Origin: a virus | Strand: one strand, 5' to 3' | Length of the DNA stretch: 36,479 bases | IMG/VR virus record: IMGVR_UViG_3300031673_000228 | Coordinates: 1 to 36,479 of that record | Part shown: in pieces, positions 15,231 to 28,872 of the stretch | How positions within the stretch are numbered: position 1 is the stretch's first letter | How the letters are laid out: the number at the start of each line of letters is the position of its first letter | Position numbers and translations under genes: made by a program | The notes under the pieces: model-generated | Databases searched by the model: none | What the model saw: the letters and a program-made list of their open reading frames with translations, nothing else | What the model was told of the DNA's origin: nothing

Positions 15231-15249
15231 GGCGTCTCCTCCCCGACCC

Positions 15250-15345
15250 TCATCGTCGTCTCCCAATGTTGCAGGTCAAGATGACAAGCAACAATACGAC
15301 TGACTGCATCACCAAGACGATCCGTACAAAGTCACATTCGGTCAT
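15250..15345 (-). CDS. Very small membrane peptide
   Basis: 31 residues; the start overlaps the upstream stop (ATGA at 15342-15345). The sequence has a 20-residue hydrophobic stretch (VLVMQSVVLLLVILTC) between MTECDFVR and a basic NIGRRR end, giving one transmembrane helix with basic cytoplasmic tail. Coupling to the upstream gene is the main support. Function unknown. Confidence 0.5.
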   Translation of the reverse strand: MTECDFVRIVLVMQSVVLLLVILTCNIGRRR

Positions 15346-15521
15346 AGCGTCTCCCTCCCGACCCCCAACGCAGCATCGACAGCATCTTCAATGTTGCCAG
15401 TTGCTTTCCACGCCTTCCATGCGGCTTCGTAGTCGGGTTCGACAGGCACCACGAATAGTTCCTTGACTTCCGCAGTGGGGTACAACATCTCCATGTCATT
15501 TGCTTCTCGGTACAGGGTCAT
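15342..15521 (-). CDS. Small hypothetical protein with MTLY start
   Basis: 59 residues, beginning MTLYREANDMEMLY. A helix with Trp/Ala follows (YEAAWKAWKATGNIEDAVDA). The GGAGGAG ribosome site lies just upstream, and ATGA overlaps occur at both ends. Shares its first four residues with the next upstream gene. No family recognised. Confidence 0.55.
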   Translation of the reverse strand: MTLYREANDMEMLYPTAEVKELFVVPVEPDYEAAWKAWKATGNIEDAVDAALGVGRETL

Positions 15522-15718
15522 GGCGTCTCCTCCCCGACCCATCGGTACACATGCAGGTGCGGCTCTATCACTCCGCACGTCGGACAGTGGTTGCCGCTGA
15601 TCGGCGCAATGTCGGCCTCGATCGGAACAGCCAGCAGGACGGTTCCGATCCATTGTCTGACGAGTTCCTGCATCGGGTCGTCGGGGTGTAGGTTCGGGTC
15701 GATCTGGTAGAGGGTCAT
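15518..15718 (-). CDS. Small zinc-ribbon-like protein with MTLY start
   Basis: 66 residues, beginning MTLYQIDPNLHPDDPMQELV. Near the C-terminus NHCPTCGVIEPHLHVY offers two Cys and two His as possible metal ligands. ATGA overlaps at both ends. Function unknown. Confidence 0.55.
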   Translation of the reverse strand: MTLYQIDPNLHPDDPMQELVRQWIGTVLLAVPIEADIAPISGNHCPTCGVIEPHLHVYRWVGEETP

Positions 15719-15975
15719 ACTTCTCCGATCCCTGGTATCTCAGTCCCGGCAGGCAGGTCCGCGAGCCGGTTCGAGTTCTCCCACAAGACGTGCGTCACGT
15801 CGGGGCATCCGTCGGCGCAGTAGTACTCGCCGTCGCTCCCCGGGTACGGGTCGTCCATCGAATAGTTGGCCTCCTCGACGTTGCAGAGCGTGAACGACGT
15901 TTCGTCTTCCGACGTCCTCCCGCAGTCCGCGCACGTGATGAGCGCCTCGTCCCTGTCGTCTGCCCGGTCACTCAC
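15715..15975 (-). CDS. Small Cys-rich protein
   Basis: 86 residues, acidic. CADCG (around residue 15) and YYCADGC (around 52) give two Cys pairs for one zinc site. The rest is acidic and beta-like. It overlaps its upstream neighbour by 8 bases and its downstream neighbour by 4. Function unknown. Confidence 0.55.
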   Translation of the reverse strand: MSDRADDRDEALITCADCGRTSEDETSFTLCNVEEANYSMDDPYPGSDGEYYCADGCPDVTHVLWENSNRLADLPAGTEIPGIGEV

Positions 15976-16210
15976 TGTTCCCTCTCCTTTCGGCTTCGAC
16001 GTAGGGGAGCGCCCCGTACAGGCGCTCCTTCAACTCTATGTCCCTGACACGGACGTTCGCCCGCGCCGTCTCTTGCTGGACTGCTGCGATCTCGACGGCG
16101 TACCTACGCCGCAGGGAATAGACCCTGCGGCGGTAGGTGTCGATGATGACCGTCGCGGTAAGGGCGTTCGTCACAAGAACGACGACCGCCCACCACGCTG
16201 TCTCACTCAT
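15968..16210 (-). CDS. Single-pass membrane protein with coiled coil
   Basis: 80 residues. Residues 4-24 (TAWWAVVVLVTNALTATVII) form one transmembrane helix. The rest is a charged helix (AAVQQETARANVRVRDIEL). The start lies 8 bases inside the end of the Rad52-like gene, so the two are co-translated. Function unknown. Confidence 0.55.
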   Translation of the reverse strand: MSETAWWAVVVLVTNALTATVIIDTYRRRVYSLRRRYAVEIAAVQQETARANVRVRDIELKERLYGALPYVEAERRGNSE

Positions 16211-16670
16211 CGGGCGTCCCGTCTGGGAAGTCCTTGAGGAGTTGCTCGTACAGGAACGGCGTCTTGCTCCACAGGTGGATGCCCAGGCCGGTCCTCATCC
16301 AGCATCGTTTCAGGGCGTCCGACGACGCCTTCTTTGCGTTGTCGCCGTCGTTCTCGGACGCCGGATGCTCCGCGACGCCCGCCTCCGTGATCGTGATTGC
16401 TCGTCCGTCGATTTCGACGGTCAACGTCGCGAGGACACCAACCACCGCCCCGTCCCTGGCGGGGTATGTCGCCTTGGAAGTCGTCTCCTCTGCGGCGTAG
16501 CCTCGGATGAGGGTCGTCACCTCGAAGTCGAACGGCCCGACAATCGTGAGGGCTCGTTGCGTCACGTCCTCATGGCTGACGTAATCGCCGTGCTTCCCGG
16601 GCGCTGCCTTCTTGACGAGTTTCGGCGGGAAGGGCACCGCCAACTGGATCAACTGTTCCGGCCTATTCAT
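16203..16670 (-). CDS. Rad52/Sak-like single-strand annealing protein
   Basis: 155 residues. PFPPKLVKK near the start is followed by YVSHEDVTQRALTIVGPFDF, matching the start of Rad52/Sak-type annealing proteins. Then come a beta region (VGVLATLTVEIDGRAITITE) and the signature KKASSDALKRCWMRTGLGIH, which follows the A.SDALKR.....G pattern of the family. Such proteins anneal complementary single strands during phage recombination and replication. No partner exonuclease is recognised nearby. The start at 16670 overlaps the HTH gene (ATGA). Confidence 0.75.
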   Translation of the reverse strand: MNRPEQLIQLAVPFPPKLVKKAAPGKHGDYVSHEDVTQRALTIVGPFDFEVTTLIRGYAAEETTSKATYPARDGAVVGVLATLTVEIDGRAITITEAGVAEHPASENDGDNAKKASSDALKRCWMRTGLGIHLWSKTPFLYEQLLKDFPDGTPDE

Positions 16671-16951
16671 CGAACGCTCCTGTCCTCGAGAGCCAACTTG
16701 ATCTGGCTCCTGTTGAGAATGAATGTCTCCAGGCGGTACTTGTCCACCCGCCTCGCCTTGCTCGTTCCTCCTTTCAGATGCGTGTGCAAGTCGCATCGTT
16801 CCGTCCTGATGTCCCATCCCTCCTTGCGGAGGTCCCAGACTCGGGCTGCGGCGCGGGGTATCCCCGGCTGTAGTCCGTAGGTGAACGTCTCAGAGCAGAC
16901 ACCCTGTTCTCGGGCCTGCAACAGACGTAACACTCGTTCCTTCTGCTTCAT
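16667..16951 (-). CDS. Winged-helix DNA-binding protein
   Basis: 94 residues. MKQKERVLRLLQAREQGVCS, then GIPRAAARVWDLRKEGWDIR, is the compact winged-helix pattern common in phages (V..LL...GVcs..f.....pr.aaRi.dLR..GW.I). A basic C-terminal tail follows. Likely a regulator of the leftward operon or a recombination accessory, since the annealing protein follows it directly. Confidence 0.65.
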   Translation of the reverse strand: MKQKERVLRLLQAREQGVCSETFTYGLQPGIPRAAARVWDLRKEGWDIRTERCDLHTHLKGGTSKARRVDKYRLETFILNRSQIKLALEDRSVR

Positions 16952-16967
16952 GGGCTGTTCGTCCTTT

Positions 16968-17234
16968 CTACGCCGCTGACGTTGGCTTGTCTGGCGTGCT
17001 TTCTTCGTCTTGGTGTGACGACACCGGGGGAATCAGGTCCCATCCGTACAACCTGAGCGCTCGGACAGCGTCCGACAGGCCTTGCGAGCCGTCGTCGAAT
17101 CCGTCCGCATAGCCCCGGTCGTAGGCTCCTTCGATCTCGTCGATGGCGGCGTTCCATCCGAACGTCCGTCCGGCCATCATCGCCGCCACGGTGAGGAGCG
17201 TCAGCGCCACCCACGACGCAACGATGGCGATCAC
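16968..17234 (-). CDS. Small membrane-anchored protein
   Basis: 88 residues, GTG start at 17234 overlapping the upstream stop (GTGA). One transmembrane helix at residues 2-22 (IAIVASWVALTLLTVAAMMA). Then a Gly/Asp-rich segment with GAYDRGYADGFDDG, a pattern also found in small phage membrane proteins. Function unknown. Confidence 0.55.
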   Translation of the reverse strand: MIAIVASWVALTLLTVAAMMAGRTFGWNAAIDEIEGAYDRGYADGFDDGSQGLSDAVRALRLYGWDLIPPVSSHQDEESTPDKPTSAA

Positions 17235-17860
17235 GTCGGCTCGCCTTTCAACGCGACGCGCGTCACGCCCGTCTGGCGCCTGTCCTCTCCGACCATCGCC
17301 TCGTCCGTTCCGTCGTGGTCGGTGACGGGACGGGGAGCGACACGCAGATCGACGTCGCGCTGCCGCAGGTACGTCTTCAACTGCGTCCACCGCCACGACA
17401 GCCTCACGGCGTCGGCAGCGATGGCGTCCTGCAAGACGTCCATCGGCCCCTGCCCTGTGGCTGTGGCGACACTGACGAGGATCGCCGGGGTGTTGTATGT
17501 CCGGTCCGTCGTGTACGTCGGCACCAACTCGTATCGCTTCCCGACAGCAACCGGGGCGCCTGCCCTCTCGTTCGGGTCGGCACGGTTGTCTTTCGGGGCG
17601 TCCCACTGGCGGTCCATCTCGGACGTCAGCCGCTCCCACCTGTGACGGGTGTCGGCCAATATGACTTCGATCTCTCTCGTCAGCCCAACGGCGTCAGCGA
17701 GTTCCGCGTCGCTCGGCGTCATCCGCTTCACTTTCGTCGCCGCTGCCAGCAACGTCGAAAGGTGCGAGCGGATCGCCTCGTCCTCGAGATGCTCGTCGAT
17801 CTGTCTGTCCAGCTGCCGGTCCGCAGCCAAGGCCTCCTCGGCGGCAGTCGGTTCACTCAT
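17231..17860 (-). CDS. Hypothetical protein with helical N-terminus
   Basis: 209 residues. The first 95 are charged helices (ADRQLDRQIDEHLEDEAIRS, REIEVILADTRHRWERL), probably a coiled coil. The second half is mixed. PAILVSVATATGQGPMDVLQ resembles a short HTH-like or nucleotide-site segment, but no motif is firm. Start chosen at MSEPTAAEE (17860), which overlaps the HTH gene by four bases. Function unknown. Confidence 0.5.
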   Translation of the reverse strand: MSEPTAAEEALAADRQLDRQIDEHLEDEAIRSHLSTLLAAATKVKRMTPSDAELADAVGLTREIEVILADTRHRWERLTSEMDRQWDAPKDNRADPNERAGAPVAVGKRYELVPTYTTDRTYNTPAILVSVATATGQGPMDVLQDAIAADAVRLSWRWTQLKTYLRQRDVDLRVAPRPVTDHDGTDEAMVGEDRRQTGVTRVALKGEPT

Positions 17861-18042
17861 CGTTTGCTCCTCTTCTCGTTCCATTCGTCAATCGTCTTCT
17901 GCTCCCAGATCGGTGTCCGGCCTAAGCCGACGAACTGATCCGGTGGGGGCAGTTCGCCCCGGTTCGACATCGTGTAGAGCGTGTCAAGCTTCAAGCCGAT
18001 GTGAACAGCGATGTCACCGACACCCAGCATTCGTTCCGTCAT
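17857..18042 (-). CDS. AlpA/excisionase-like HTH protein
   Basis: 61 residues: MLGVGDIAVHIGLKLDTLYT, then RGELPPPDQFVGLGRTPIWE and a helix with TIDEWNEKRSKR. This is the standard MerR-like HTH plus wing of AlpA and excisionase proteins. It is a second member of the type in this window (the other is at 3064-3282). Probably a transcription regulator. ATGA coupling at both ends. Confidence 0.75.
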   Translation of the reverse strand: MTERMLGVGDIAVHIGLKLDTLYTMSNRGELPPPDQFVGLGRTPIWEQKTIDEWNEKRSKR

Positions 18043-18311
18043 CCGTCCTCCTTCTTCTTCTGTTGCTGATACCACGCCGCCAACTGCATCGCGATGGTGT
18101 GGCTGTGACGCACACCCGGCCTGTTCTCACCGAACGGGCAAGAGCAGTAGGCGGTCCCGGGAGTCACCGACACGGCATACACGACGCCGGAATCTCCCTT
18201 CACTTCCCCCGCCGCTATCCGCAGGTCGCCGTCGTCGTCGTATTCGATCATCTCGACCGTCACGGCTCCTTCCGTGACGAGCCTCGCCGCCTTGTATTCG
18301 CTGTCCTTCAT
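18039..18311 (-). CDS. SWIM-like zinc finger protein
   Basis: 90 residues. YCSCPFGENRPGVRHSHTIA gives C-x-C then H-x-H, close to the SWIM pattern CxC...CxH but with His in place of the third Cys. The N-terminal part is a beta sheet ahead of the finger, as in other SWIM proteins. SWIM fingers bind DNA or proteins, often in recombination. The Lys-rich end (QQQKKKEDG) may be flexible. Confidence 0.55.
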   Translation of the reverse strand: MKDSEYKAARLVTEGAVTVEMIEYDDDGDLRIAAGEVKGDSGVVYAVSVTPGTAYCSCPFGENRPGVRHSHTIAMQLAAWYQQQKKKEDG

Positions 18312-18320
18312 TCCTCCTCC

Positions 18321-18578
18321 TCACTCGACGTAACTGGACGGGCCGACGTTCATCCAGTCCAACCCGAACCACGGATTCGACGCCTGGATGATCGTCGTCG
18401 ATTGCTCCACCGGGATCGCGAACTCGGTCGGGTTGATCGAATCCTCAGCGTCCCACGACGACCCGATGGACTTGAGTGCCAGGTCGTAGAAGGCGACGAG
18501 ACACGGCTCAATGCCCCCTGCAGCCGCTTCCACGCACACCTGGAGTTCTTGTGCCGTGAGGCTCCGCTTGAACCTCAT
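18321..18578 (-). CDS. Hypothetical protein
   Basis: 85 residues, no recognised family. A helical start (MRFKRSLTAQELQVCVEAAA) is followed by an acidic, aromatic C-terminal half (NPWFGLDWMNVGPSSYVE). ATGA overlap with the upstream gene; 9-base gap to the next. Confidence 0.5.
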   Translation of the reverse strand: MRFKRSLTAQELQVCVEAAAGGIEPCLVAFYDLALKSIGSSWDAEDSINPTEFAIPVEQSTTIIQASNPWFGLDWMNVGPSSYVE

Positions 18579-18838
18579 AGCGGCATCTCCGGCTGCACCG
18601 TTTCGATGTACTCCCGCGCTGCCCGTTCGGAGCGGAACAGTCCCGAGTAGTCCGTGAACAGCCGATGCGGCACGCCACGCCGAGCGATAGAGACACCGAA
18701 GATCGCGTCGTTACGCATCCCCGTCCCTTCGCACAGTTCGTACAGCCAGTCGCCGTGCAGTTCGCCGCACTCGATCCGGTGCGGCGTCATCACGTTCTTG
18801 CCGACGATCAGTTCGTCGAACTCCTCAGCGAACGTCAT
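18575..18838 (-). CDS. Hypothetical protein
   Basis: 87 residues: MTFAEEFDELIVGKNVMTPH and HGDWLYELCEGTGMRNDAIF, then a helix near the end (SERAAREYIETVQ). The W-L-Y-E-L..G pattern and size suggest a small alpha-beta domain. ATGA coupling on both sides. Not recognised. Confidence 0.5.
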   Translation of the reverse strand: MTFAEEFDELIVGKNVMTPHRIECGELHGDWLYELCEGTGMRNDAIFGVSIARRGVPHRLFTDYSGLFRSERAAREYIETVQPEMPL

Positions 18839-19521
18839 TTCGTCACCTCGAATGCTGCCACCCGACGCAACTGCTCTTCGGTGAGGTCACGCCGGTCGAT
18901 CTGCGCCTCCACGTCCGTGTAGACGTAGCCGGAACGCCGCTCCACTTCCTCGCCCCATTCGCCCAGATACACCGAACCGCCGGGGACGCCCAGCTGGTCT
19001 GCGACGGCCTGACCGATGTCGGTCCAGTCCGTGGCGCGAGTGGACACCATGACGTTCGTCTTGACGTTCACCATCGGGTCCTCCCAACGGCCAGAGTCCG
19101 CGAGTCGCATCTGGAACGTCGGCACCGCTTGGCGGTTGCTGTCTTCGATGAGTTGCGAGAACGTGCGAATGTCTCGCCGCAGGAGAACGAGACGCCGCAG
19201 CGCCCACCGATCCCGCTTGGCGATGTTCGACAACCAATGCGCCGAACCGGCAACGAACGCCGGTCCGTCGTTGAGGCCGATCATCAACTCGTATGACGGG
19301 TCCTCGACCCAGTAGTCCAACCCGTCTTCGCACAACCCGCACATGAAGTCGGCTCCACCGGGAGTCCCGACGTAGGTGCCATGCACGCAACGGTCGCCGC
19401 CCCAACGGCCGTCGTCAGTAGACGGGTCCGTGTCCTCGAGACGCTGCAACTGCTCGTCCGCTGCCCGCGCCAACTCCTCCTCGAACTGATCGTCGATCTG
19501 TGTCTGCTCGAATGCGGTCAC
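18835..19521 (-). CDS. Hypothetical protein with CxxC site
   Basis: 228 residues, GTG start with GGAGG site, overlapping the upstream stop (GTGA). The N-terminal helix (IDDQFEEELARAADEQLQRL) leads to RCVHGTYVGTPGGADFMCGL then C, so three Cys and a His may bind zinc. The middle is helical (LRRLVLLRRDIRTFSQLIED). The end is beta-helical. This layout (Cys cluster, then LLRRDIRTF) recurs in other actinophage early proteins of unknown role. Confidence 0.5.
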   Translation of the reverse strand: MTAFEQTQIDDQFEEELARAADEQLQRLEDTDPSTDDGRWGGDRCVHGTYVGTPGGADFMCGLCEDGLDYWVEDPSYELMIGLNDGPAFVAGSAHWLSNIAKRDRWALRRLVLLRRDIRTFSQLIEDSNRQAVPTFQMRLADSGRWEDPMVNVKTNVMVSTRATDWTDIGQAVADQLGVPGGSVYLGEWGEEVERRSGYVYTDVEAQIDRRDLTEEQLRRVAAFEVTK

Positions 19522-19757
19522 GACCGCACCTCCTTCGGTTCCCATCCGTCCTCCATGCCCTGCTCCCACACGGCGGCGTCGTCGGGACGCCCCATCTTCA
19601 CCCACCAGTCATGCTCCTCCGACCAGTGCCACGGCTTCTCGAAATACTCGAGCAGGCCGGTCACGTCGTCGTCTTGAATGAAGCCCGCCGTCACCATGTC
19701 ACGTGCGAACGACCAGACCTCGTCCGATGACTCGATCCACTTGCCAATAGTCCTCAT
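19518..19757 (-). CDS. Small acidic hypothetical protein
   Basis: 79 residues, starting MRTIGKWIESSDEVWSFARD. Rich in Trp and acidic residues (WHWSEEHDWWVKMGRPDDAA). No family recognised. It precedes the GTG start of the next gene with GTGA coupling. Confidence 0.5.
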   Translation of the reverse strand: MRTIGKWIESSDEVWSFARDMVTAGFIQDDDVTGLLEYFEKPWHWSEEHDWWVKMGRPDDAAVWEQGMEDGWEPKEVRS

Positions 19758-19759
19758 GC

Positions 19760-19912
19760 TCACCCCTTCACTATCACGTGGACGTTCCACGTCCGGTCCT
19801 TGCCACGCTGCTTCGTCCATCCGGTGACGAGGCCGTGCTTGCGGGCCTGCCGCAGCGCCTCCATCACGTCCTCAGTCGTCGGTCGCTTCTTCGTCGGGAA
19901 GTGCATGTCCAT
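19760..19912 (-). CDS. Very small basic protein
   Basis: 50 residues with ATGA overlap to the upstream gene. The sequence TTEDVMEALRQARKHGLVTG is a likely helix, and the rest is basic beta (TWNVHVIVKG). It resembles a small winged-helix half but is too short to call. ATG 19912 is used; a GTG one codon earlier is possible. Confidence 0.45.
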   Translation of the reverse strand: MDMHFPTKKRPTTEDVMEALRQARKHGLVTGWTKQRGKDRTWNVHVIVKG

Positions 19913-20259
19913 CACGCCACCTCGTCCACGTTGTAGATAGCGGAGCGGAGTTCTGCGAACTGCGTCCTGTTCAGGAACAGCGACACCCCGGCGACGATGA
20001 TCGAATACACGCCGTCGTCCAAGTCGAACGCCTGAACCTTGCCGGTCCGTTCCGAGTGCGTGACGTGGACGTCCACCGACGTATGGCCCCGGCCGTTCGC
20101 GGAGTAGAACTCCTTGGCCCAGAGTGTCACGTCGGTGCGGTCTGGCTGCTCGTCGGTCGAGCAGGTGATGGTGACGGTGCGCGCCTTGAAATAGGGGCTG
20201 CCGTTCTTGTGCTTGAACGTCTTGGTCCTCGACGTCGTCTTCATCCTGTCCTTCAACAT
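19912..20259 (-). CDS. Hypothetical beta-rich protein
   Basis: 115 residues. A basic start (MLKDRMKTTSRTKTFKHKNG) is followed by beta strands (YFKARTVTITCS, HTSVDVHVTHS, GVYSIIVAGVSLFLNRTQFA). No family recognised. It starts after two hairpins in an 80-base gap, so it may begin a separately controlled part of the operon. Confidence 0.5.
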   Translation of the reverse strand: MLKDRMKTTSRTKTFKHKNGSPYFKARTVTITCSTDEQPDRTDVTLWAKEFYSANGRGHTSVDVHVTHSERTGKVQAFDLDDGVYSIIVAGVSLFLNRTQFAELRSAIYNVDEVA

Positions 20260-20293
20260 CGTTCCTCCTTTGGAACCGGCCTGCCATCGTCAG

Positions 20294-20334
20294 TGTCGGG
20301 GCGGCCACTCCCCGACAGACCCCCTTGCGGGGGT
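20294..20334 (-). terminator. Hairpin pair inside the leftward operon
   Basis: TGTCGGGG (20294-20301) pairs with CCCCGACA (20310-20317). Next to it CCCCC (20320-20324) pairs with GGGGG (20329-20333) around a TTGC loop. They fill the largest gap between genes in the leftward operon. There is no U-tract on the minus strand, so partial termination or RNA processing is more likely than a full stop. The plus strand does have TTT after the last stem. Confidence 0.45.
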
Positions 20335-20339
20335 TTCGG

Positions 20340-20606
20340 CTAGATGTAGGTGCTGTGGTTGTCGAAGTCCTCTTGAGCGGACTCGGTGCCGTTGGCGTCC
20401 TCCATGAAGCGCCGCACCATCTTGGTGGCTGCCCTGCCGGTCGGCTCGTCAAGCCCGTACCTGGACTGGTCGATGACGGTGAACAGATGCGAGCCTGCCA
20501 GATGCAGGACCCACGAATCCGGCTGCCACACGATCCTGAACTCCGACCCGGGCAGCCGATACCAGCGCCACCCGAATACGTCTGTCTCGAAACGAACGTC
20601 GATCAT
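20340..20606 (-). CDS. Hypothetical protein
   Basis: 88 residues. A beta-rich first half (VFGWRWYRLPGSEFRIVWQP; LHLAGSHLFTVIDQSRYG), then a helix (RAATKMVRRFMEDANG). Own GGAGGA site before ATG 20606. No family recognised. Confidence 0.5.
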   Translation of the reverse strand: MIDVRFETDVFGWRWYRLPGSEFRIVWQPDSWVLHLAGSHLFTVIDQSRYGLDEPTGRAATKMVRRFMEDANGTESAQEDFDNHSTYI

Positions 20607-20618
20607 GTCGTCCTCCTC

Positions 20619-21041
20619 CTAGTGGATCATCCACTGAGCGAAACGGCTGCGGACGGTCCGCTCGGCTTCGCTGAATCCGTTGCTGAAATGGTCGGTCGAG
20701 ACGCCGCTGCCGTAGTTCCCGATCAACTGCTTCTTCAGTTCGTCTACGAGAATCTCGAACGCCTCGAACGGCGCCGACACGTCGTTATCGAACAGGCCGT
20801 CCTCGAGGCCCTTGGCGAGGATGTTGTCGTACTGGCTCCACAGTCTCGCCTGAGCCTGGATTTCGGCGAGCGTCCCACAGTCGCTCCAGTCGAGGCGGTA
20901 GCCCTTCAGGAGGTTGGCGGCGACCTTCTCTTGCTCTGCTGCGAGCTTGGCGTTGAAGTCTGCTCGGACGGCAGTGACGAGGTGGCTCCTCATCTCGATG
21001 TAACGGTCTTCCTCGACGGGCGTGTAGTTGATGTCTGTCAT
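20619..21041 (-). CDS. Hypothetical helical protein
   Basis: 140 residues from MTDINYTPVEEDRYIEM with an AGGAGG ribosome site. Mostly helical, with long amphipathic segments (RADFNAKLAAEQEKVAANLL; LAEIQAQARLWSQYDNILAK; FEAFEILVDELKKQLI). No motif recognised. Longer upstream frame is a shadow of the next gene. Confidence 0.5.
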   Translation of the reverse strand: MTDINYTPVEEDRYIEMRSHLVTAVRADFNAKLAAEQEKVAANLLKGYRLDWSDCGTLAEIQAQARLWSQYDNILAKGLEDGLFDNDVSAPFEAFEILVDELKKQLIGNYGSGVSTDHFSNGFSEAERTVRSRFAQWMIH

Positions 21042-21051
21042 GTCGTTCCTC

Positions 21052-21513
21052 CTAGTGAATGATGACCGGCTCGGCGGTCGCTGTTCCCGTCCACACTGTC
21101 GCGACGTCTTCCAACTCTCCGTAGTCCCCGTTGGAGGAGAAGTAGAGGTGGACGACGTATCCGTTGCCCCGCACCTGCCGGTCGTAATGGGCGACACTTT
21201 CGATGCCGTCGCAACCGTCCAGGTCGTCGTGGCTGCCCTTGCCCATCGTGATGTTGCAGAGGCGGCGGGCAGTCTCGGCGTCTTCGGCGTACACGGGCAG
21301 GAACCTCGTCCCGACTTCGGTGCGCCAGTTCGTCGGATAGCCCCGAGTGTCACGAACGAGTTTCGCTGCCCTGCGGAGCCGCTCGATGGCCTTCGTCATC
21401 GACAGTTCGTAGTAGCCAGTCTCGACGTGACGTGCTTGGCGGTGCGTGTCGCAAGCGACGACGTCGCCGTCTACGTCCAGGCAGTCCTCGCAAGTGATCC
21501 AGTCCGTGTTCAC
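21052..21513 (-). CDS. Hypothetical protein with N-terminal Cys cluster
   Basis: 153 residues, GTG start (GGAGG site), overlapping the upstream stop. N-terminal CEDCLDVDGDVVACDTH gives three Cys and a His as a likely zinc knuckle. A helix follows (LSMTKAIERLRRAAKLVRD) and then a beta domain (VRGNGYVVHLYFSSNGDYG). The basic helix after the knuckle would suit nucleic-acid binding; this is inference. Confidence 0.5.
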   Translation of the reverse strand: MNTDWITCEDCLDVDGDVVACDTHRQARHVETGYYELSMTKAIERLRRAAKLVRDTRGYPTNWRTEVGTRFLPVYAEDAETARRLCNITMGKGSHDDLDGCDGIESVAHYDRQVRGNGYVVHLYFSSNGDYGELEDVATVWTGTATAEPVIIH

Positions 21514-21722
21514 GATTCGTCCTCCAGATATTCGGTCGCCAACGACACGATCATGTTGATGTTCTCGACCGTCGAATGGCTGCGGCACAGCAGGCCCGCC
21601 GTCCGATACGACCGTCCGTTCGGTGTGCTGAGTTGCACTTTCACGTCCGCTCGGACGAGGCACTGATCGCAGCCCCCAACCTCTCGGACGCCCATCTTCA
21701 CGACTCTTGACTTCCTCGTCAT
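21510..21722 (-). CDS. Small Cys-rich protein
   Basis: 70 residues from MTRKSRVVKMGVREVGGCDQC. CDQC plus a later CRSH could form one zinc site, with a helix (TVENINMIVSLATEYLED) after it. ATGA and GTGA overlaps on both sides. Function unknown. Confidence 0.5.
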   Translation of the reverse strand: MTRKSRVVKMGVREVGGCDQCLVRADVKVQLSTPNGRSYRTAGLLCRSHSTVENINMIVSLATEYLEDES

Positions 21723-21892
21723 TTCGTTCCTCCTGAGTAGATGTGGTCGGCCTTGTGAGTCCGTGCCCACTGCTGGGCGTCGGCCTTGAGATTGAATATC
21801 GCCGAGTCCTCGCAGACCGGGCAGACGACTTCGGTGAACGTGGCGTAGATGAAATCCTGCGTCTTCGGGACGCTGTTGCGATCGGTTGTCAT
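21719..21892 (-). CDS. Small Cys-pair protein
   Basis: 57 residues: FTEVVCPVCEDSAIFNLKAD, then a helix with QQWARTHKADH. CPVC plus two downstream His fit a C2H2-like finger. ATGA overlaps on both sides. Function unknown. Confidence 0.5.
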   Translation of the reverse strand: MTTDRNSVPKTQDFIYATFTEVVCPVCEDSAIFNLKADAQQWARTHKADHIYSGGTK

Positions 21893-22104
21893 TTCGTCAG
21901 TCCCTTCGCTCCTAGGTAGGACTGCCAGCAGCCCCAGTGGTACCAGCCGCCGCCGACCTGTCCGACGTTGACGAGTTCGTATGGCGCCGTCTCCCAGTAG
22001 AGATGCGATTCGCCGCACCATTCGCATTCGTGCATTTCTTTCTCGACCGTCTCGCCCCGAAGGGCTGCCGTCAACTGCTCCGGCGTCGCTGTCCTGTGAT
22101 TCAT
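21889..22104 (-). CDS. Small Cys-pair protein
   Basis: 71 residues. A short helix (TPEQLTAALRGETVEKEMHE) leads to CEWCGESHLYW and then WYHWGCWQSYLG. Two Cys and nearby His/Cys suggest a zinc ribbon. ATGA overlaps at both ends. Function unknown. Confidence 0.5.
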   Translation of the reverse strand: MNHRTATPEQLTAALRGETVEKEMHECEWCGESHLYWETAPYELVNVGQVGGGWYHWGCWQSYLGAKGLTK

Positions 22105-22409
22105 TTGGTGTTCCTTTCGTCTTCGATGCGGTTGAGGATGCCGGTGGCGGCGAGGACCGCTCCGGCGTCCATCACATACTGTCCGTTGTTGGCGGTCACG
22201 TTCCCGTACGTGTTGATCCAGTCGATGCTCGGAAGGCGGTCAACGGTGCGTCCGCTGAGGACGACTGTTGCTTGTGCGCCTCGCCGATGGAACGTCAACT
22301 CTGTTGCTCCGGGCATGCTGAGTTTGAATCCCGGTCCGAGGTTCGTGTAGCGCTCGTCGAATATGCGGCTGCTTGCGAAGTCTCTGCCCGTCAGTGTCGT
22401 CGTCTTCAT
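22101..22409 (-). CDS. First gene of the leftward operon, hypothetical
   Basis: 102 residues from MKTTTLTGRDFASSRIFDER with a GGAGG site 7 bases before ATG 22409. Beta-rich middle (FKLSMPGATELTFHRRGAQA; TVVLSGRTVDRLPSIDWINT), then a helix (MDAGAVLAATGILNRIEDE). Frames extending further upstream run through the tRNA-like region and are not supported. Function unknown; as first gene it should be expressed earliest. Confidence 0.55.
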   Translation of the reverse strand: MKTTTLTGRDFASSRIFDERYTNLGPGFKLSMPGATELTFHRRGAQATVVLSGRTVDRLPSIDWINTYGNVTANNGQYVMDAGAVLAATGILNRIEDERNTK

Positions 22410-22444
22410 CGTTGGCCTCCTTGTGGCCTCGTCCGTTCCTTCGT

Positions 22445-22491
22445 GGCATGGGAGGGAGTCGAACCCTCCCCGTCGCCCTTCCCGGGCTGCC
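22445..22491 (-). ncRNA. tRNA-like T-arm element 2
   Basis: On the minus strand the box-B consensus GGTTCGACTCC occurs exactly. GAGGG and CCCTC (22452-22456, 22464-22468) close a canonical 7-base TTCGACT loop, extendable to 7 pairs. It is followed by an acceptor-like CATGCCA end. No D-arm or anticodon arm can be drawn: the next T-arm begins only about 50 bases upstream, too near for a full tRNA. The local 5' partner GGCA (minus strand) pairs for only 4 bases; a perfect 9-base partner lies 300 bases upstream. Confidence 0.4.
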
Positions 22492-22496
22492 GTAGT

Positions 22497-22539
22497 GCTC
22501 CCCGCCGGAATCGAACCGGCGTCTATATCCAATGGGAGC
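22497..22539 (-). ncRNA. tRNA-like T-arm/acceptor minihelix 1
   Basis: On the minus strand GCTCCC (22539-22534), 13 bases, GCCGG, a TTCGATT loop, CCGGC and GGGGAGCA form an acceptor-plus-T-arm minihelix of 43 bases. The loop and flanks match the tRNA box B GGTTCGATTCC exactly. Six acceptor pairs form. D-arm and anticodon arm are absent. It may be a decayed tRNA, a tRNA-mimic, or part of a larger RNA; a phage attachment site built on a tRNA 3' end is unlikely without an integrase. Confidence 0.45.
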
Positions 22540-22928
22540 GTCACCACAACCCGTTTCGGGTCGCCGTGTCTCGTCCGCCTCTCTCAGCGGCGCCTTGCAG
22601 ACCCTTAGGTTCCCGTCCCACTTGGCTTGGTTCTCCACACACCCTTTCGGTTGTGCTATGACGTTCGGCTTCCCAAGTTGCTGGGGCGGGGTTGACCGTT
22701 TGGTTCCCGCTCGGCTTGTTATTGCTGCTTCCCCGTCCTGTGTGAACTTCCCATGCCGGTCGGAGCGACCGTTTAGTGGCGGCCTTGTGGCGCTTGGCAG
22801 TCCGGGCTATCCGTTGCACTCTGCGTCGCTGCGGCTTGGGCGTTGGCGGGGGGCTTCTCTTGCTCGCTGGTTGTGCGGTGTTGGCCTACTCGACCGGTGT
22901 GGCTTGGGTGGCTCCTTCTTGTTCGTTG

Positions 22929-23291: not shown

Positions 23292-24587
23292 ATGACGGGA
23301 CGGAGACTCGAAACGGTGTACGTCGACGTGGACGACTTGATCCCCCATCCGCGGAACGTGCGGCAGGGCGACGTGGGCGCCATCGTCGAATCGCTCGACG
23401 CCCACGACCAGTACCGAACCATCGTCGTGTCAGCCGACACCATGCACGTCCTCGCCGGGAACCACACTTGGAAGGCGATGAAGGCGCGCGGCGACACTGA
23501 GATCGCCGTCCACCTCATCCCGGGCCTGACCCTCGACCAAGAGTTGCGGATCATGCTGACGGACAACGCAACGACAGACAAGGCGACGAACGAGGACACG
23601 GCGCTCGTCGAACTGCTGTTGGAGTTGGCTGAGACGTCGCAGCATCTGACCGGCTCCGGTTTCGACCGGGACGACCTCGACGCACTCATCTCGCAACTCG
23701 ACCGGAACGCCATGGACCCGCAGGGAGCGACGGACCGGCTCCGTGGTAAGAAGATGCTGTCCGAGATCGACCTCATCTTCACGATGGGTTCCTACGGCAA
23801 GGGAGGGACGCCGACGTTGGGTTTGGACGACGCCGAGTCGGACACCTGGGGCCACATCGTTCAAGTCCTCTGCTGTCTCGCCGTCAAGTCCGGTTGGAAG
23901 TACGGCGTCCAGTCGTCGAAACTGACGTGCGGCTCGGCCCGCATCTGGGACACGCACAGGCCGGTGTTCGTTGACAACGAGTTCAAGGACTACGACCACG
24001 AAGCGCACGTCCGCTACGTCGCCTACTGGAAGCCCAAGTACGCGACGGTGCGGGACTTGATGACGGAGAAGCAATGCGCCGCCATCGACGTCCCGTACTA
24101 CTCGGTCGCTGAGACGCTCGAGATGGCTGAGGAGATTCGAGAGGCGGGAGCGGAGCGCGTCATCCTGATCCCGAAGTACGACTGCTTCGATCAGCTGCCC
24201 GAGGATTACGTCATCGGCTTCTCCGTGCCGACGTCCTACGGCGGCTCCATGCTGCCCGTCGAGAAGTTCGCGGGACGGGACGTTCATCTGTTGGGTGGAG
24301 GACCGGCGTTGCAGATCGCCTACGTGGAGGCGTTCACCGACGCCGGGGCGAAGGTCGTTTCGCTCGACAACAACTACATGCTGAAGGTCGCGAAGTGGGG
24401 GACGTTCTGGTCTGAGAACAAGGCCGCGGGCCACCTCGACGAGTTGGGGTTCCGTGTCGGCAGCCTCGCCAACCCTCTCTACATTGCGCTCGGCATCTCG
24501 CTCGGATCGTTCGCCCGATTCTTCCAACGCCCCATCGAATCGGAGGAACCCGACGTGGACGAACACCTCGAAGTCTTGGAGGACTGA
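23292..24587 (+). CDS. ParB-domain protein fused to a transglycosylase-like (DUF6610-like) domain
   Basis: 431 residues, GAGGAGGAAC site before the ATG. Residues 5-135 are a ParB/Srx-type N-terminal domain: DDLIPHPRNVRQGDVGAIVE, VLAGNHTWKAMKARG, and a LTDNATTDKATNEDTALVEL helix region. In many phages this type of domain precedes a DNA methylase. Residues 155-375 instead show a TIM-barrel-like series resembling DpdA/TGT enzymes: FVDNEF (226-231), KYATVRDLMT, VIGFSVPTSYGG (307-318), DVHLLGGGP (330-338) and VVSLDNN (355-361). First gene of the deazaguanine cassette. I infer a DNA-modifying or target-choosing partner of DpdA; DUF6610 membership is from recall. Catalysis is not proven. Confidence 0.7.
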   Translation: MTGRRLETVYVDVDDLIPHPRNVRQGDVGAIVESLDAHDQYRTIVVSADTMHVLAGNHTWKAMKARGDTEIAVHLIPGLTLDQELRIMLTDNATTDKATNEDTALVELLLELAETSQHLTGSGFDRDDLDALISQLDRNAMDPQGATDRLRGKKMLSEIDLIFTMGSYGKGGTPTLGLDDAESDTWGHIVQVLCCLAVKSGWKYGVQSSKLTCGSARIWDTHRPVFVDNEFKDYDHEAHVRYVAYWKPKYATVRDLMTEKQCAAIDVPYYSVAETLEMAEEIREAGAERVILIPKYDCFDQLPEDYVIGFSVPTSYGGSMLPVEKFAGRDVHLLGGGPALQIAYVEAFTDAGAKVVSLDNNYMLKVAKWGTFWSENKAAGHLDELGFRVGSLANPLYIALGISLGSFARFFQRPIESEEPDVDEHLEVLED

Positions 24588-24745
24588 AACCTGGGACTAC
24601 CTGGCGGAATGGCTGCTTGACGTCCGACTCCTGTGATTACACCACGAATCATGGTGCGTTGCGTCTACGCCAACGTCGCCGCCTCTGACGCCGTTCAGCG
24701 GAGTTGACTGGACTCGCCGCCGATGCGCGTGGTATGGTCGGTTTC

Positions 24746-24783
24746 GCCGGTCGTAGACAACCCGGCTCACCAAATACAAGGAG
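24746..24783 (+). promoter_or_regulatory. preQ1-riboswitch-like leader (tentative)
   Basis: GCCGG (24746-24750) pairs with CCGGC (24762-24766) around the 11-base loop TCGTAGACAAC. An A-rich tail TCACCAAATACAAGGAG follows and carries the ribosome site of the transporter gene. Loop GTA could pair with tail TAC to make the pseudoknot expected of a preQ1-I switch, which would hide the ribosome site. Against it: the loop base expected to be C for ligand pairing is not C. The gene order (switch before a queuosine-precursor transporter) is typical. Confidence 0.3.
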
Positions 24784-24790
24784 CATCGAC

Positions 24791-25390
24791 GTGACTATCA
24801 CGTGGCCCGCAATCGTCGGCAGGAACCGTCTCTACTTGGGCATCGTCCTCGCCGTCGTCTACCTGTCCATGATCCCCCTCGCCAACTACGCCATCGAACA
24901 CTGGGGCACTCAGTTCGAGCCGGGAGGCCCGTTCCTCATCCATCTGTTCTGGTGGCCGTTCTCAGACCTATGGGCGCCGTCCGGCGTCATCTTCATCGGC
25001 TTCGCGTTCCTCGCCCGAGACATGGTGCAACGCGTCCTCGGCAAGTGGGTGGCGCTCGGAGCCATCGCCATCGGCATCTTCCTGTCCGCTCTCCTGTCCT
25101 CCCCCGGCCTCGTCATCGCCTCGGCGGTTGCGTTCGGGTTCTCAGAGGTCGCCGACTTCTCGGTCTACACGCCACTGGTGAAACGGTCGCTCTGGTTCGC
25201 TGTCATCGCGTCCGGCGTCGTCGGCTCGTTCATCGACTCGTTCCTGTTCCTCCAGATCGCATTCGGCTCGACGATGTTCTGGCAGGGACAAGTCGTCGGC
25301 AAGATTTCGATGAACGTCTTTGCGCTCCCGTTCATCTACCTGCTTCGGAAGGTGACGCCCGAACCCGTCGAAGCGGAGGTGGCGGCGTGA
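24791..25390 (+). CDS. yhhQ: Queuosine precursor transporter, YhhQ/VUT family
   Basis: 199 residues, GTG start with AAGGAG 7 bases upstream. About six hydrophobic helices: YLGIVLAVVYLSMIPLANYA, WAPSGVIFIGFAFLARDMVQ, VALGAIAIGIFLSALLSS, VIASAVAFGFSEVADFSVYT, LWFAVIASGVVGSFIDSFLF, and MNVFALPFIYLL. The FLARDMVQ motif after helix 2, SEVADFSVY, and the SFIDSFLF motif in helix 5 are typical of YhhQ transporters, which import preQ0/preQ1 or related deazaguanines. It lets an infected host that lacks the pathway supply base from the medium. The stop overlaps the QueF start (GTGA). Confidence 0.85.
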   Translation: MTITWPAIVGRNRLYLGIVLAVVYLSMIPLANYAIEHWGTQFEPGGPFLIHLFWWPFSDLWAPSGVIFIGFAFLARDMVQRVLGKWVALGAIAIGIFLSALLSSPGLVIASAVAFGFSEVADFSVYTPLVKRSLWFAVIASGVVGSFIDSFLFLQIAFGSTMFWQGQVVGKISMNVFALPFIYLLRKVTPEPVEAEVAA

Positions 25391-25767
25391 CAGACGGCTT
25401 GACGATCCTCGGCTCGAGAGTCACAGAGCCGGGCGCCCTCGAGACGTTCCCGACTCCCGACCATGTGGAGAGCGTCATGCTCGCCGTGCTGGAAGGCACG
25501 TCCCGATGCCCGATCACCGGCCAGCCCGACTTCTGGGCGTGCGAGATCTCATACGGCCCAGCCGAGCGGTGCCTGGAGACGAAGTCGCTCAAGCTCTACC
25601 TGCAGGGCTTCCGCGAGGACGGCCATTTCGCTGAGGCACTCTCGGCACGCATCTGCGAAGACGTCCACGCCGCGCTCGAACCGGAATGGGTGGACGTCAC
25701 GATCGTGTTCACGGTGCGGGGCGGCTGCGAAATCACTGCCACAGCCTCGATGGGGGCCGGTCGATGA
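25387..25767 (+). CDS. queF: QueF-family 7-deazaguanine enzyme
   Basis: 126 residues, unimodular T-fold. RCPITGQPDF carries Cys41 (thioimide-forming cysteine in QueF) and Asp48 at the correct spacing. ETKSLKLYLQGFRE is the QueF NADPH motif (E-x-K-S-x-K-x-Y). FTVRGG near the end is also conserved. The usual FRNxGxFHE is here FREDGHFAE, so the conserved His is replaced by Ala82 while Glu83 is kept. A normal QueF reduces preQ0 to preQ1. The change may alter activity, and a QueF paralogue acting on another deazaguanine is possible. It lies between transporter and QueC with four-base overlaps. Confidence 0.8.
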   Translation: MTDGLTILGSRVTEPGALETFPTPDHVESVMLAVLEGTSRCPITGQPDFWACEISYGPAERCLETKSLKLYLQGFREDGHFAEALSARICEDVHAALEPEWVDVTIVFTVRGGCEITATASMGAGR

Positions 25768-26444
25768 GTGCCGTCGTGTTGCTGTCCGGCGGGATCGATT
25801 CGACGGTGACGCTGACGATGGCGCTCCAAGAGCATCGGGAGGTCCTCGCCCTGTCGATCCTGTACGGCCAGTCCCATCCCGAGGAAGTCGAGCATGCCGC
25901 AGCCGTCGCCAACTACTTCGGTCGCGGCGTCTACCACGAGATCGTGACGCTCGACGCGTCGCTCCTCGCCACCACCGCCTCGTCCCTCACCGGCGACCGT
26001 GCCATGCCAGACGAGACGTATGAAGAGCTCGCAGAACACGACGGCCCGTCCCCGACGTATGTGCCGTTCCGTAACGGCCTCATGCTGTCCATGGCGACCG
26101 CCAAGGCGCTGCCGTTCGGAGCGGACGAGGTGTGGGCCGGGATGCACTCTGAGGACGCGGCGCATTGGGCATACCCTGACTGCACTCCCGAGTTCATCGG
26201 CGGCATGGCGAACGCCATCTACGTCGGCACCTACCACCAGGTGCGGCTCCGCACCCCGTTGCAGTGGATGACGAAGACGGACGTCATCAGGGCAGGCATC
26301 GACCTGGCTGCGCCACTCACACTCACTCTCTCCTGCTACCGCGGCTACCCGCCCTGCGGGACCTGTCCGACGTGCGTGTCACGCATCCACGCCTTCGCCG
26401 AAATAGGCATCCGGGACCCCGCCGATGCTGCTGTTCGTCTCTAA
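25764..26444 (+). CDS. queC: 7-cyano-7-deazaguanine synthase QueC
   Basis: 226 residues, ATGA overlap with queF. The PP-loop LLSGGIDST is at residues 6-14. HSEDAAHWAYPDCTPEFIGG is the QueC-specific motif. A C-terminal four-Cys zinc site reads CYRGYPPCGTCPTC. QueC converts 7-carboxy-7-deazaguanine (CDG) with ammonia and ATP to preQ0. The genes for making CDG (folE, queD, queE) are absent here, so the host must supply CDG, or the transporter brings in preQ0 instead. All active-site motifs are intact. Confidence 0.92.
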   Translation: MSAVVLLSGGIDSTVTLTMALQEHREVLALSILYGQSHPEEVEHAAAVANYFGRGVYHEIVTLDASLLATTASSLTGDRAMPDETYEELAEHDGPSPTYVPFRNGLMLSMATAKALPFGADEVWAGMHSEDAAHWAYPDCTPEFIGGMANAIYVGTYHQVRLRTPLQWMTKTDVIRAGIDLAAPLTLTLSCYRGYPPCGTCPTCVSRIHAFAEIGIRDPADAAVRL

Positions 26445-26997
26445 GTCCCACGACCAGCTCCCCCGACGGGAACGCGTCGGGTCGCTCGTCACGCCACTCA
26501 ACGGCGCCATCCCCGGCGACGTGTACGGGGCAGACAACGGCGCCTACACCGGATTCGACCCTGACCGGTATCGGGCCATGCTCGAACGGCTCCGCTCCTA
26601 CCCGGGCTGCCGCTTCGTCGCTGTCCCCGACGTCGTAGGAGACGCCGCAGCCACAGATGCGCTCTGGTGGGAATGGTCAGGGGAAGTCGCCAAGCATCTT
26701 CCCGCCGCCTACGTGTCACAGGACGGGGCTACAGTCATTCCCCGATACGCCTCGGCGCTGTTCATCGGCGGCACCACCGAATGGAAACTCTCAGACGCCT
26801 CCCGCAGCCTCGTCCAAGAAGCACACCGCAGACACCTGTGGATTCACATGGGCCGCGTCAATTCGCACCAACGCCTCCGCACCGCCCAATCCTGGGGCTG
26901 CCACTCCATCGACGGCTCGTCACTCACCTGGTGGACAGACACCTATCTAGACGCCTTCCTCGACGCAACGACCTATCAGCAACTCCCCCTCGTCTAA
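26425..26997 (+). CDS. dpdA: DNA transglycosylase DpdA, short form
   Basis: 190 residues, overlapping queC by 20 bases. Motifs of a shortened TGT/DpdA barrel: GADNGAYTGF (35-44), FVAVPDVVGDAAAT (64-77), ALFIGGTTEWKL (111-122), WIHMGRVNSHQRL (139-151) and CHSIDGSS (159-166). DpdA enzymes swap guanine in DNA for a 7-deazaguanine base. The tRNA-TGT zinc site is not seen, as in phage DpdA proteins. It ends the modification operon directly before the terminase genes, so modification may finish before packaging. Subfamily not determined. Confidence 0.8.
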   Translation: MLLFVSKSHDQLPRRERVGSLVTPLNGAIPGDVYGADNGAYTGFDPDRYRAMLERLRSYPGCRFVAVPDVVGDAAATDALWWEWSGEVAKHLPAAYVSQDGATVIPRYASALFIGGTTEWKLSDASRSLVQEAHRRHLWIHMGRVNSHQRLRTAQSWGCHSIDGSSLTWWTDTYLDAFLDATTYQQLPLV

Positions 26998-27053: not shown

Positions 27054-27602
27054 ATGGCCAACGGCAACGGGACACGCAGACCGAAACGCAAGACAGGACG
27101 ACCCACCGTCCTCACCGCCTACGTCATCGCCGAATACCTCCGAGCCAGACGCCGCGGAGGATCAGACACCGACTGCGCCTACATGGCAGGCATCCACCCC
27201 GACACGGTCCGCAGATGGCGCTACCGCCTCGACGCCTGCGACCCCCAGATAGACGACACCACCGGGAAGCTCGGCACCTACGCCGACGACGAAGCCGACC
27301 CGCCCATCCCCGTCTTGTTCGAGTTCTTCGAGGACATCAAAAGAGCGACAGCCGAGGCACGCATCGAACGGCTTGCCCACATCGAGAAGGCAGGCCAGGA
27401 CGGAACGTGGACGGCTGCGGCGTGGTGGCTTGAACGCCGCTACCCAGACGAGTACGGACGGCGGGAACGGCGAGACGTCACAGTCACATCCAACGGGACA
27501 CTCAGAGTCGATACGACTGGAGAGGTAGACGTCGATGACGCCGACAGGCTCGAAGCCATCGCCAGCATCCTCAGCGAAGTCCTCCACGGCGGCGAGGACT
27601 AG
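27054..27602 (+). CDS. Terminase small subunit
   Basis: 182 residues. A basic start (RRPKRKTGRPT) precedes an HTH: VIAEYLRARRRGGSDTDCAY, then HPDTVRRWRYRL. Later EARIERLAHIEKAGQDGTWT and AAAWWLERRYPDEYGRRER match the phage small-terminase/HTH family in which A..W.LERR.P..yg is a hallmark. It recognises phage DNA for packaging. It is directly upstream of and overlaps the large subunit gene. Confidence 0.8.
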   Translation: MANGNGTRRPKRKTGRPTVLTAYVIAEYLRARRRGGSDTDCAYMAGIHPDTVRRWRYRLDACDPQIDDTTGKLGTYADDEADPPIPVLFEFFEDIKRATAEARIERLAHIEKAGQDGTWTAAAWWLERRYPDEYGRRERRDVTVTSNGTLRVDTTGEVDVDDADRLEAIASILSEVLHGGED

Positions 27603-28872
27603 AGCGGCTGCGGAGTTGTCGCTGGACGCCTGGTCCGGTTTCATCCCCCACCAGCCCACCCCCCGCCAGCATGCCTTCCTGTGGCTCCCCGACAAGGAAG
27701 TCATGTACGGCGGCGCCGCGGGTGGAGGCAAGTCCGATGCGCTCCTCATGGCAGGCTTACAGCATGTCGATCAGCCCGCATTCGCTGGCCTGATTCTGCG
27801 TCGCCGCTACGCCGACCTCACCAAGCCGGGGGCGCTCATCGACCGCAGCCACCAATGGCTCGGCCCCACCCAGGCGCGCTGGTCGCCGCAGACCGCGACG
27901 TGGCACTTCCCGTCCGGCGCTCAACTCTCGTTCGGCTACATCGCCACGGACCGTGACCTCGACCAATACCAGTCAGCCGAGTACCAGTACATCGGTGTGG
28001 ACGAGTTGACGCAGTTCACGCTCTACCAATACCGGTTCATGTTCTCCCGGCTCCGCCGCCTGGAGGGTTCGGACATTCGACTCAAGATGCGGTCCGGGAC
28101 CAACCCGGGGAACGTCGGCCACGAATGGGTGAAGGAACGGTGGCGGCTCGGCAAACGGTACGCCGCAGAGGCGAGGCCCCGCGGGCGGCGTTTCGTCCCG
28201 GCCCGTCTCGAGGACAACCCGCATCTGGATCAGGACGCCTACGACTCGTCGCTGCGGGAGCTGGGCGGCGTCCTCCATGCACAGTTGAGAGAGGGCGACT
28301 GGGACGTCCACAACGAGGGCATCAAGTTCAACCGGTCATGGTTCCCGATCGACGAGGAGCGTGGCGAGCCGGTGACGCGCGTCCGCTACTGGGATCTGGC
28401 TTCGACGGAACCGGCACCCGGGAAGGACCCGGACTGGACGTGCGGCGTCCTGTTGGCCGTCGACAAGGAAGGCGTCTATCACGTCGAGGACGTGACGAGG
28501 GACCGGCTGACGCCGCTGGGCGTCGATCGGCTCGTCAAGCGGATAGCGGAGTCCGATGGCAGACAGGTCAACGTCTTCATGGAGCAGGAACCCGGCTCCT
28601 CGGGTGTCCGCACCATCGACCACTTCCGTCGCACCGTCCTCCCGGGATGGCAGTTCAGGCCGCACAAGACGACAGGGTCCAAAGAGGTGAGAGCGAACCC
28701 TGTAAGCTCAATGGCCGAGGCGGGTAACGTCCACGTGGTGCGTGGCGGTTGGACTGAGGCGTTCTTCGACGAACTGGAGGCCTTCCCGAATGGTGAACAC
28801 GACGACCAGGTGGACGCCCTGTCCGGTGCGTTCCTCATGCTGACGTCGCTCAACCGTTGGTGGGTGGCATGA
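27535..28872 (+). CDS. Terminase large subunit
   Basis: 445 residues. Walker A GGAAGGGKS at 59-67 and Walker B YIGVDELTQF at 152-161 form the ATPase. GTNPGNVGHEWV follows as the coupling motif. The nuclease domain has RYWDLASTEP and a closing EHDDQVDALSGAF, which together carry the catalytic acidic residues of the RNase H-like fold. ATG 27535 lies 68 bases inside terS. The first 25 residues are low complexity, so a TTG start at 27616 is an alternative. Confidence 0.92.
   Translation: MTPTGSKPSPASSAKSSTAARTRAAAELSLDAWSGFIPHQPTPRQHAFLWLPDKEVMYGGAAGGGKSDALLMAGLQHVDQPAFAGLILRRRYADLTKPGALIDRSHQWLGPTQARWSPQTATWHFPSGAQLSFGYIATDRDLDQYQSAEYQYIGVDELTQFTLYQYRFMFSRLRRLEGSDIRLKMRSGTNPGNVGHEWVKERWRLGKRYAAEARPRGRRFVPARLEDNPHLDQDAYDSSLRELGGVLHAQLREGDWDVHNEGIKFNRSWFPIDEERGEPVTRVRYWDLASTEPAPGKDPDWTCGVLLAVDKEGVYHVEDVTRDRLTPLGVDRLVKRIAESDGRQVNVFMEQEPGSSGVRTIDHFRRTVLPGWQFRPHKTTGSKEVRANPVSSMAEAGNVHVVRGGWTEAFFDELEAFPNGEHDDQVDALSGAFLMLTSLNRWWVA

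Follow-up and report, generated by a model that had tools for sequence, protein, structure and literature searches.

How a virus that encodes neither folE nor queD might obtain a 7-deazaguanine base, and which of its proteins would place that base in DNA, is the question raised by a five-gene cassette at positions 23,292 to 26,997 of IMG/VR virus record IMGVR_UViG_3300031673_000228 (36,479 nucleotides (nt), the whole of which is called the window here). By gene content this is a genuine DNA-modification cassette: it joins DpdA-type candidate transglycosylases with QueC, QueF, and YhhQ, as do known 7-deazaguanine systems of phages. An imported or host-made precursor is probably converted into 7-cyano-7-deazaguanine (preQ0) or 7-aminomethyl-7-deazaguanine (preQ1) and placed in DNA, with preQ1 handled by a fusion of ParB and DUF6610 and with a short DpdA serving as a second transglycosylase. 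A first-pass annotation had proposed a modification cassette living on host or external precursor, which the gene content bears out. It left the first gene unnamed, thereby missing its tRNA-guanine transglycosylase (TGT)-like fold, and implied a single DpdA; since this gene encodes ParB-DUF6610, there are two candidate transglycosylases. The kind of system is already known, and what appears to be new is the pairing of a ParB-fused DUF6610 candidate with a short DpdA, with a transporter, QueC, and QueF to supply them. The cassette and the two genes that follow it are listed below; CDG and ADG are 7-carboxy- and 7-amido-7-deazaguanine.

23292-24587, + strand: ParB-DUF6610 fusion (431 amino acids), candidate DNA guanine transglycosylase for preQ1 (PF20314, ParB PHROGs, barrel model, invariant Asp)
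24791-25390, + strand: predicted YhhQ/QPTR-family precursor transporter (PF02592 over cut-off)
25387-25767, + strand: QueF type II (126 amino acids), predicted preQ0 to preQ1 reductase (TIGR03139, motifs)
25764-26444, + strand: QueC (226 amino acids), predicted to convert CDG via ADG to preQ0 (PF06508, TIGR00364, motifs)
26425-26997, + strand: short DpdA (190 amino acids), compact second candidate transglycosylase (phrog_15826, profile match, AlphaFold2 TIM barrel)
27054-27602, + strand: terminase small subunit terS (phrog_4102, 3e-24)
27535-28872, + strand: terminase large subunit terL (phrog_979, 1e-116)

The protein encoded by gene 1 contains a ParB-like domain at about residues 1-150 and a TGT-like barrel at about residues 153-418. 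Its DUF6610 match (PF20314) has an E-value of 2e-37 and 129.1 bits against a gathering cut-off of 27. The ParB part matches PHROG families (best 2e-28) and, among solved structures matched by sequence, Noc/ParB and Spo0J. In isolated phages, tblastn finds full-length relatives in gene 1 of the Mycobacterium phages Knocker, Funsized, and Rinkes (33% identity) and relatives having DUF6610 alone in haloviruses.

The AlphaFold2 model of the fusion, built from 28 sequences, has a predicted local distance difference test score (pLDDT) of 82. The best structural match of its barrel part is TGT (VIA Z 13.5, root-mean-square deviation (rmsd) 3.6-3.8, 227-230 residues), and TGT entries make up most of the top 50 matches; among predicted viral proteins, the best match not named ParB is the DUF6610 protein of halovirus HCTV-1 (E 1e-12). 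Residues D228, D255, and D359 are invariant across the 28-sequence family alignment and lie at the ends of, or just past, strands 3, 4, and 8; their TGT counterparts are presumably D102, D156, and D280. Two comparisons weigh against this assignment: PdxJ barrels match nearly as well as TGT (Z 13.3), and hhalign gives no significant sequence-level match of DUF6610 to TGT and DpdA1 (E 0.05-0.19). The hhalign match between DUF6610 and the short DpdA is weak (E 0.024), with both Asp residues aligned. Because the profile comparison is not significant, the link to TGT rests on the fold, the invariant Asp residues, and genomic context, which together suggest that DUF6610 is a TGT-like barrel and a candidate transglycosylase. 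DUF6610, listed in Pfam as of unknown function and in phage records as ParB or hypothetical, thus gains a testable function.

The ParB domain has a parallel in bacterial dpd islands, which likewise combine a TGT-like transglycosylase with a ParB-superfamily protein (PMC6392294, PMC12839542). In these islands, DpdB is described as a ParB-like ATPase that drives insertion by DpdA (PMC12839542, PMC6392294). Unlike in the window, DpdA and the DndB-like DpdB (PMC11888242) each have a gene of their own there and are followed by a dpdD-K restriction operon. Neither a separate DndB-like DpdB nor dpdD-K restriction genes were found in or beside the window cassette, where ParB is fused and the terminase is the neighbor. 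By analogy, the ParB domain may work much as DpdB does in a DpdB-DpdA pair, and the fusion gives direct genomic support for ParB-like partners of DNA transglycosylases. Phage DNA methyltransferases, too, often have a ParB domain next to them or joined to them (PMC12783734).

The fifth gene had been read as a short DpdA, and comparison with TGT and DpdA folds agrees. The protein matches phrog_15826 (1e-38) and phage proteins annotated as DpdA-like (38-43% identity), has no Pfam match, and retrieves no relative in a sequence search of the PDB. Against a phage DpdA profile, hhalign gives a probability of 94.8 and an E-value of 5e-8 over 160 columns. The AlphaFold2 model (pLDDT 92) is a TIM barrel with eight strands in 190 residues, and TGT is among its best solved matches (Foldseek E 7e-4; Z 13.2, rmsd about 3 over 184 residues). 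Pyruvate kinase barrels tie with TGT in this comparison, so that the fold alone is not decisive for the predicted assignment; the profile homology to phage DpdA is. D37, D69, Q99, G115-G116, and D163 are invariant in 87 short-DpdA sequences and are located where strands 3, 4, 5, 6, and 8 end. Their TGT counterparts are D102, D156, Q203, G229-G230, and D280.

Short DpdA is found at 118 loci (not deduplicated), 54 of which also contain YhhQ. Among the loci found, only the window combines DUF6610 with short DpdA. Other pairs of transglycosylase families occur in Knocker and Rinkes (DUF6610 and DpdA1) and in Sonali and Vibrio phage R29Z (short DpdA and DpdA1). In two phages with a normal DpdA, Escherichia phage phiG7 (L162:8932-9524) and Vibrio phage R29Z (L163:4767-5351), short DpdA lies beside a DNA polymerase gene, and in phiG7, a Seuratvirus, it is broken up into a pair of overlapping reading frames.

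The presence of two barrel proteins does not require that both act. Only one of them may modify DNA, with the short DpdA working and ParB-DUF6610 accessory or decayed, or the reverse; we regard this as the less probable reading, though one of some weight. Deletion of dpdA in phage CAjan, the only gene deletion reported, abolishes all modification, and Orion DNA is unmodified despite a DpdA (PMC6884629). The CAjan argument is qualified by its relative phiG7, which also has a short-DpdA frame. Both window proteins keep their family-invariant residues, however, both belong to a single compact cassette, and transglycosylase families are paired again in Knocker and Rinkes, Sonali, and R29Z. A division of labor is thus preferred, in which the short DpdA would be a second transglycosylase acting probably at another site or on another form of the base (preQ0).

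The base itself is best approached through QueF. The window protein matches PF14489 (1e-21) and the QueF-II preQ1 synthase model TIGR03139 (97.9 bits, cut-off 86.9). It keeps the catalytic Cys/Asp pair and intact CPITGQPD and ETKSLKLY motifs, and the E(T)KSLKLY stretch is presumably the NADPH motif of reductases. It is 44% identical to QueF of Streptococcus phage Dp-1, whose DNA contains dPreQ1 and no 2'-deoxyarchaeosine (dG+) (PMC6884629). The DNA of halovirus HVTV-1 carries dPreQ1 at about 30% of G, and Rosebush and CAjan, grouped as phages without last-step enzymes, carry dPreQ0 (PMC6884629). Because DUF6610 and QueF occur together constantly in de novo gene sets, and because HVTV-1 contains dPreQ1, the DUF6610 enzyme would use preQ1. 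No QueF was seen in the DpdA-type loci without DUF6610 (Sonali, phiG7). A scan with the QueF protein as query gave no confirmed match. The first-pass annotation had allowed either preQ0 or preQ1 as product, between which the genetic link of DUF6610 with QueF favors preQ1.

One substitution weighs against this choice and leaves doubt: the phage QueF has Ala where its relatives have His or Cys, just before the conserved Glu. The protein might then be an amidinotransferase (QueF-L) or inactive, and the product dPreQ0 or dG+ rather than dPreQ1. QueF and QueF-L are indistinguishable by sequence alone according to the authors of a 2019 survey (PMC6884629). The intact Cys/Asp pair and E(T)KSLKLY motif, the TIGR03139 score above its cut-off, and the dPreQ1 with little or no dG+ in Dp-1 and HVTV-1 DNA make such a product unlikely, and the evidence points to preQ1 as the base for the DUF6610 enzyme.

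QueF-like proteins of another type occur in cassettes of YhhQ and short DpdA from Arthrobacter phage Aoka (L051:5337-6821) and three further loci (L013, L124, L128). These proteins keep the Cys/Asp pair and lack both ESKSLK, which is replaced by ELHSLRAY, and the RGG motif. By sequence, they resemble QueF-L and might yield dG+ or another base and not dPreQ1.

The relatives of gene 1 in known viruses clarify its likely role. In the Mycobacterium phages Knocker (Bclasvirinae) and Rinkes, as in the window, gene 1 encodes ParB-DUF6610 (33% identity along its full length), gene 2 encodes QueF, and the cassette precedes the terminase; the full order is fusion, QueF, DpdA, QueC, QueD, QueE, FolE, and terminase. 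Unlike the window, they have a full-length DpdA1 in place of the short DpdA, they encode QueD, QueE, and FolE, and they lack YhhQ. GenBank labels their gene 1 only as a ParB-like nuclease domain protein, and gene 2 (L002:1310-1702, L047:1299-1691) is annotated as GTP cyclohydrolase but is actually QueF.

The haloviruses HVTV-1 and HCTV-1 (Druskaviridae) also encode DUF6610, within a 7-deazaguanine cluster that includes QueF and QueC, and HCTV-1 has YhhQ as well. They differ from the window in lacking the ParB fusion and the short DpdA and in carrying a full de novo set, with about 27% identity. FolE is the immediate neighbor of the DUF6610 gene in both HVTV-1 (where that gene is HVTV1_69) and HCTV-1. 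The 2019 survey found no DpdA in HVTV-1 and suggested a host DpdA (PMC6884629). DUF6610 is the obvious candidate for this absent transglycosylase, which would make the enzyme of HVTV-1-type viruses one that is widespread in bacteriophages as a fusion to ParB. Cui et al. (2023) reportedly named an archaeal-virus DpdA4; that DUF6610 is DpdA4 is an unconfirmed lead.

The cassettes of ReqiPine5, Aoka, and Phegasus overlap with that of the window in having a short DpdA from the same family (38-43% identity), immediately next to YhhQ, and no de novo genes. Unlike the window, these phages have neither DUF6610 nor QueC, and the QueF-like protein of Aoka is without ESKSLK.

DUF6610 was surveyed in viral contigs, genomes, and annotated phages; at 90% identity the proteins form 31 families, one of which is that of the window. 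Since the full fusion retrieved only ParB-domain relatives from viral contigs, the DUF6610 part was used alone as query. The domain is fused to ParB in 23 of the 31 families, among them nearly all bacteriophage ones. The unfused remainder consists of three haloviral families, two in which no ParB was detected, and three distant families from genomes of bacteria and cyanobacteria. The distant proteins, from Thermosporothrix hazakensis (L168, L169) and Symploca (L167), have no ParB or pathway gene nearby.

FolE occurs in 13 of the 31 families, all 13 of which also contain QueF, QueC, QueD, and QueE, and YhhQ occurs in 15. One family has both FolE and YhhQ (HCTV-1), 12 have FolE only, 14 have YhhQ only, and four have neither. 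The 14 YhhQ families without FolE are graded into those with YhhQ alone (six), with YhhQ and QueF (four), and with YhhQ, QueF, and QueC (four, including the window). The window is thus a member of a recurrent YhhQ, QueF, and QueC class without folE, queD, or queE. Fourteen whole viral records, each of the transporter type or free of pathway genes, yielded neither FolE nor QueD, though they may be fragments. This pattern divides the phages, repeatedly, into some that make the modified base themselves and others that would import it. The exclusion of FolE and YhhQ has a Fisher p of 2e-4 and less when kinship is ignored, and so is not proof.

Two results weigh against the import reading. With shared ancestry taken into account, the exclusion is no longer significant (one to four independent pairs, low power), and YhhQ scores below the TIGR00697 cut-off (39.8 bits against 50.95; 4e-10). 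The DUF6610 tree is poorly resolved around the window. YhhQ does exceed the cut-off of PF02592 (Vut_1) with 54.2 bits against 27.2 (2.7e-14), and the QPTR family to which it is assigned carries preQ0, preQ1, or queuine (PMC11130926).

QueC narrows the question of precursor supply. It matches PF06508 (7e-53) and exceeds the TIGR00364 cut-off (153.1 bits against 150.3), and its translation retains the SGGIDS PP-loop and the C-x-CxxCxxC zinc cysteines. The earlier naming of YhhQ, QueF, and QueC, with intact QueC motifs, is confirmed by family matches far beyond chance. A role for QueC as a defense protein of the QatC/Cap9 type was considered and rejected, as the QatC model gives 16 bits against a cut-off of 280 and TIGR00364 is over its cut-off. 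QueC would be of no use if neither CDG nor ADG reached the cell; hence the host would supply CDG, or the transporter would take an earlier intermediate. We know of no report of CDG or ADG salvage. QueC is kept together with YhhQ in four separate families in which folE, queD, and queE were not found.

From gene content, motifs, predicted folds, and co-occurrence, we infer each chemical step, which base is used, what ParB does, and how the two enzymes share the work, as follows. YhhQ would import a precursor base, QueC would convert host-made or imported CDG or ADG to preQ0, and QueF would reduce preQ0 to preQ1. The DUF6610 barrel would then exchange guanine in DNA for preQ1, with D228 and D359 placed as D102 and D280 of TGT, while the ParB domain would bind DNA or load the barrel on it, as DpdB serves DpdA in bacteria. 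A part of the DNA guanines would thereby be replaced by a 7-deazaguanine base after replication, and the marked DNA would resist host restriction. A more elaborate version, in which one phage carries two marks, preQ1 at ParB-loaded DUF6610 sites and a second base or site set by the short DpdA and fed by CDG/ADG salvage, is rather doubtful.

The cassette could instead serve tRNA by providing more preQ1 to the host TGT for queuosine and so raising translation late in infection. The 2019 survey proposed such a role for phages with pathway genes and no DpdA (PMC6884629). The window, however, encodes two TGT-fold proteins, one of them fused to a DNA-associated ParB domain. Furthermore, a Streptomyces griseocarneus contig (L165) carries a ParB-DUF6610 cassette with the complete de novo set, and no match to the TGT family was found in the genome of this bacterium; the product of that cassette therefore cannot reach tRNA by the known route. 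A tRNA role is accordingly very improbable, and modification of DNA remains the preferred function.

The arrangement of the cassette is as first described, with five consecutive genes on one strand, the last four of which overlap. The overlaps are GTGA at 25387-25390 and ATGA at 25764-25767 (4 nt each) and 20 nt at 26425-26444. A gap of 203 nt separates gene 1 from YhhQ, whose GTG start at 24791, right after AAGGAG, is preferred over TTG at 24704. Promoter and terminator scans within the cassette returned hits at chance level. The cassette adjoins the terminase genes, as had been noted: terS starts 57 nt past the end of the short DpdA gene and is followed by terL. A terminase gene was detected 3-6 kb downstream of the cassette in nine of the 31 DUF6610 families, and the timing of modification may be late.

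The window contains terminase, portal, capsid, head-tail connector, tail tape measure, and endolysin genes in a circularly permuted order, and no terminal repeat was found in it. Both ends lie inside open structural frames (35970-36479 and 3-1070), and the left-end frame is rich in TDPVGVTD-like repeats that are also present in 2508-3092 and 10180-11508. The ends likely represent an assembly break in a circularly permuted genome. The record is probably near complete, with a small gap possible at its ends, and therefore the failure to find folE, queD, or radical-SAM genes anywhere in its 36,479 nt probably reflects a real absence. Assignment of a host failed, as the terminase is closest to those of psiM2 (48%) and Gordonia phages (45%), which fixes no host. 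On the minus strand at 13342-22547, no DNA polymerase was recognized among the open reading frames read or scanned. This region holds about 20 small genes, including those for a replication-initiation-like protein, an HNH endonuclease, and a single-strand annealing protein.

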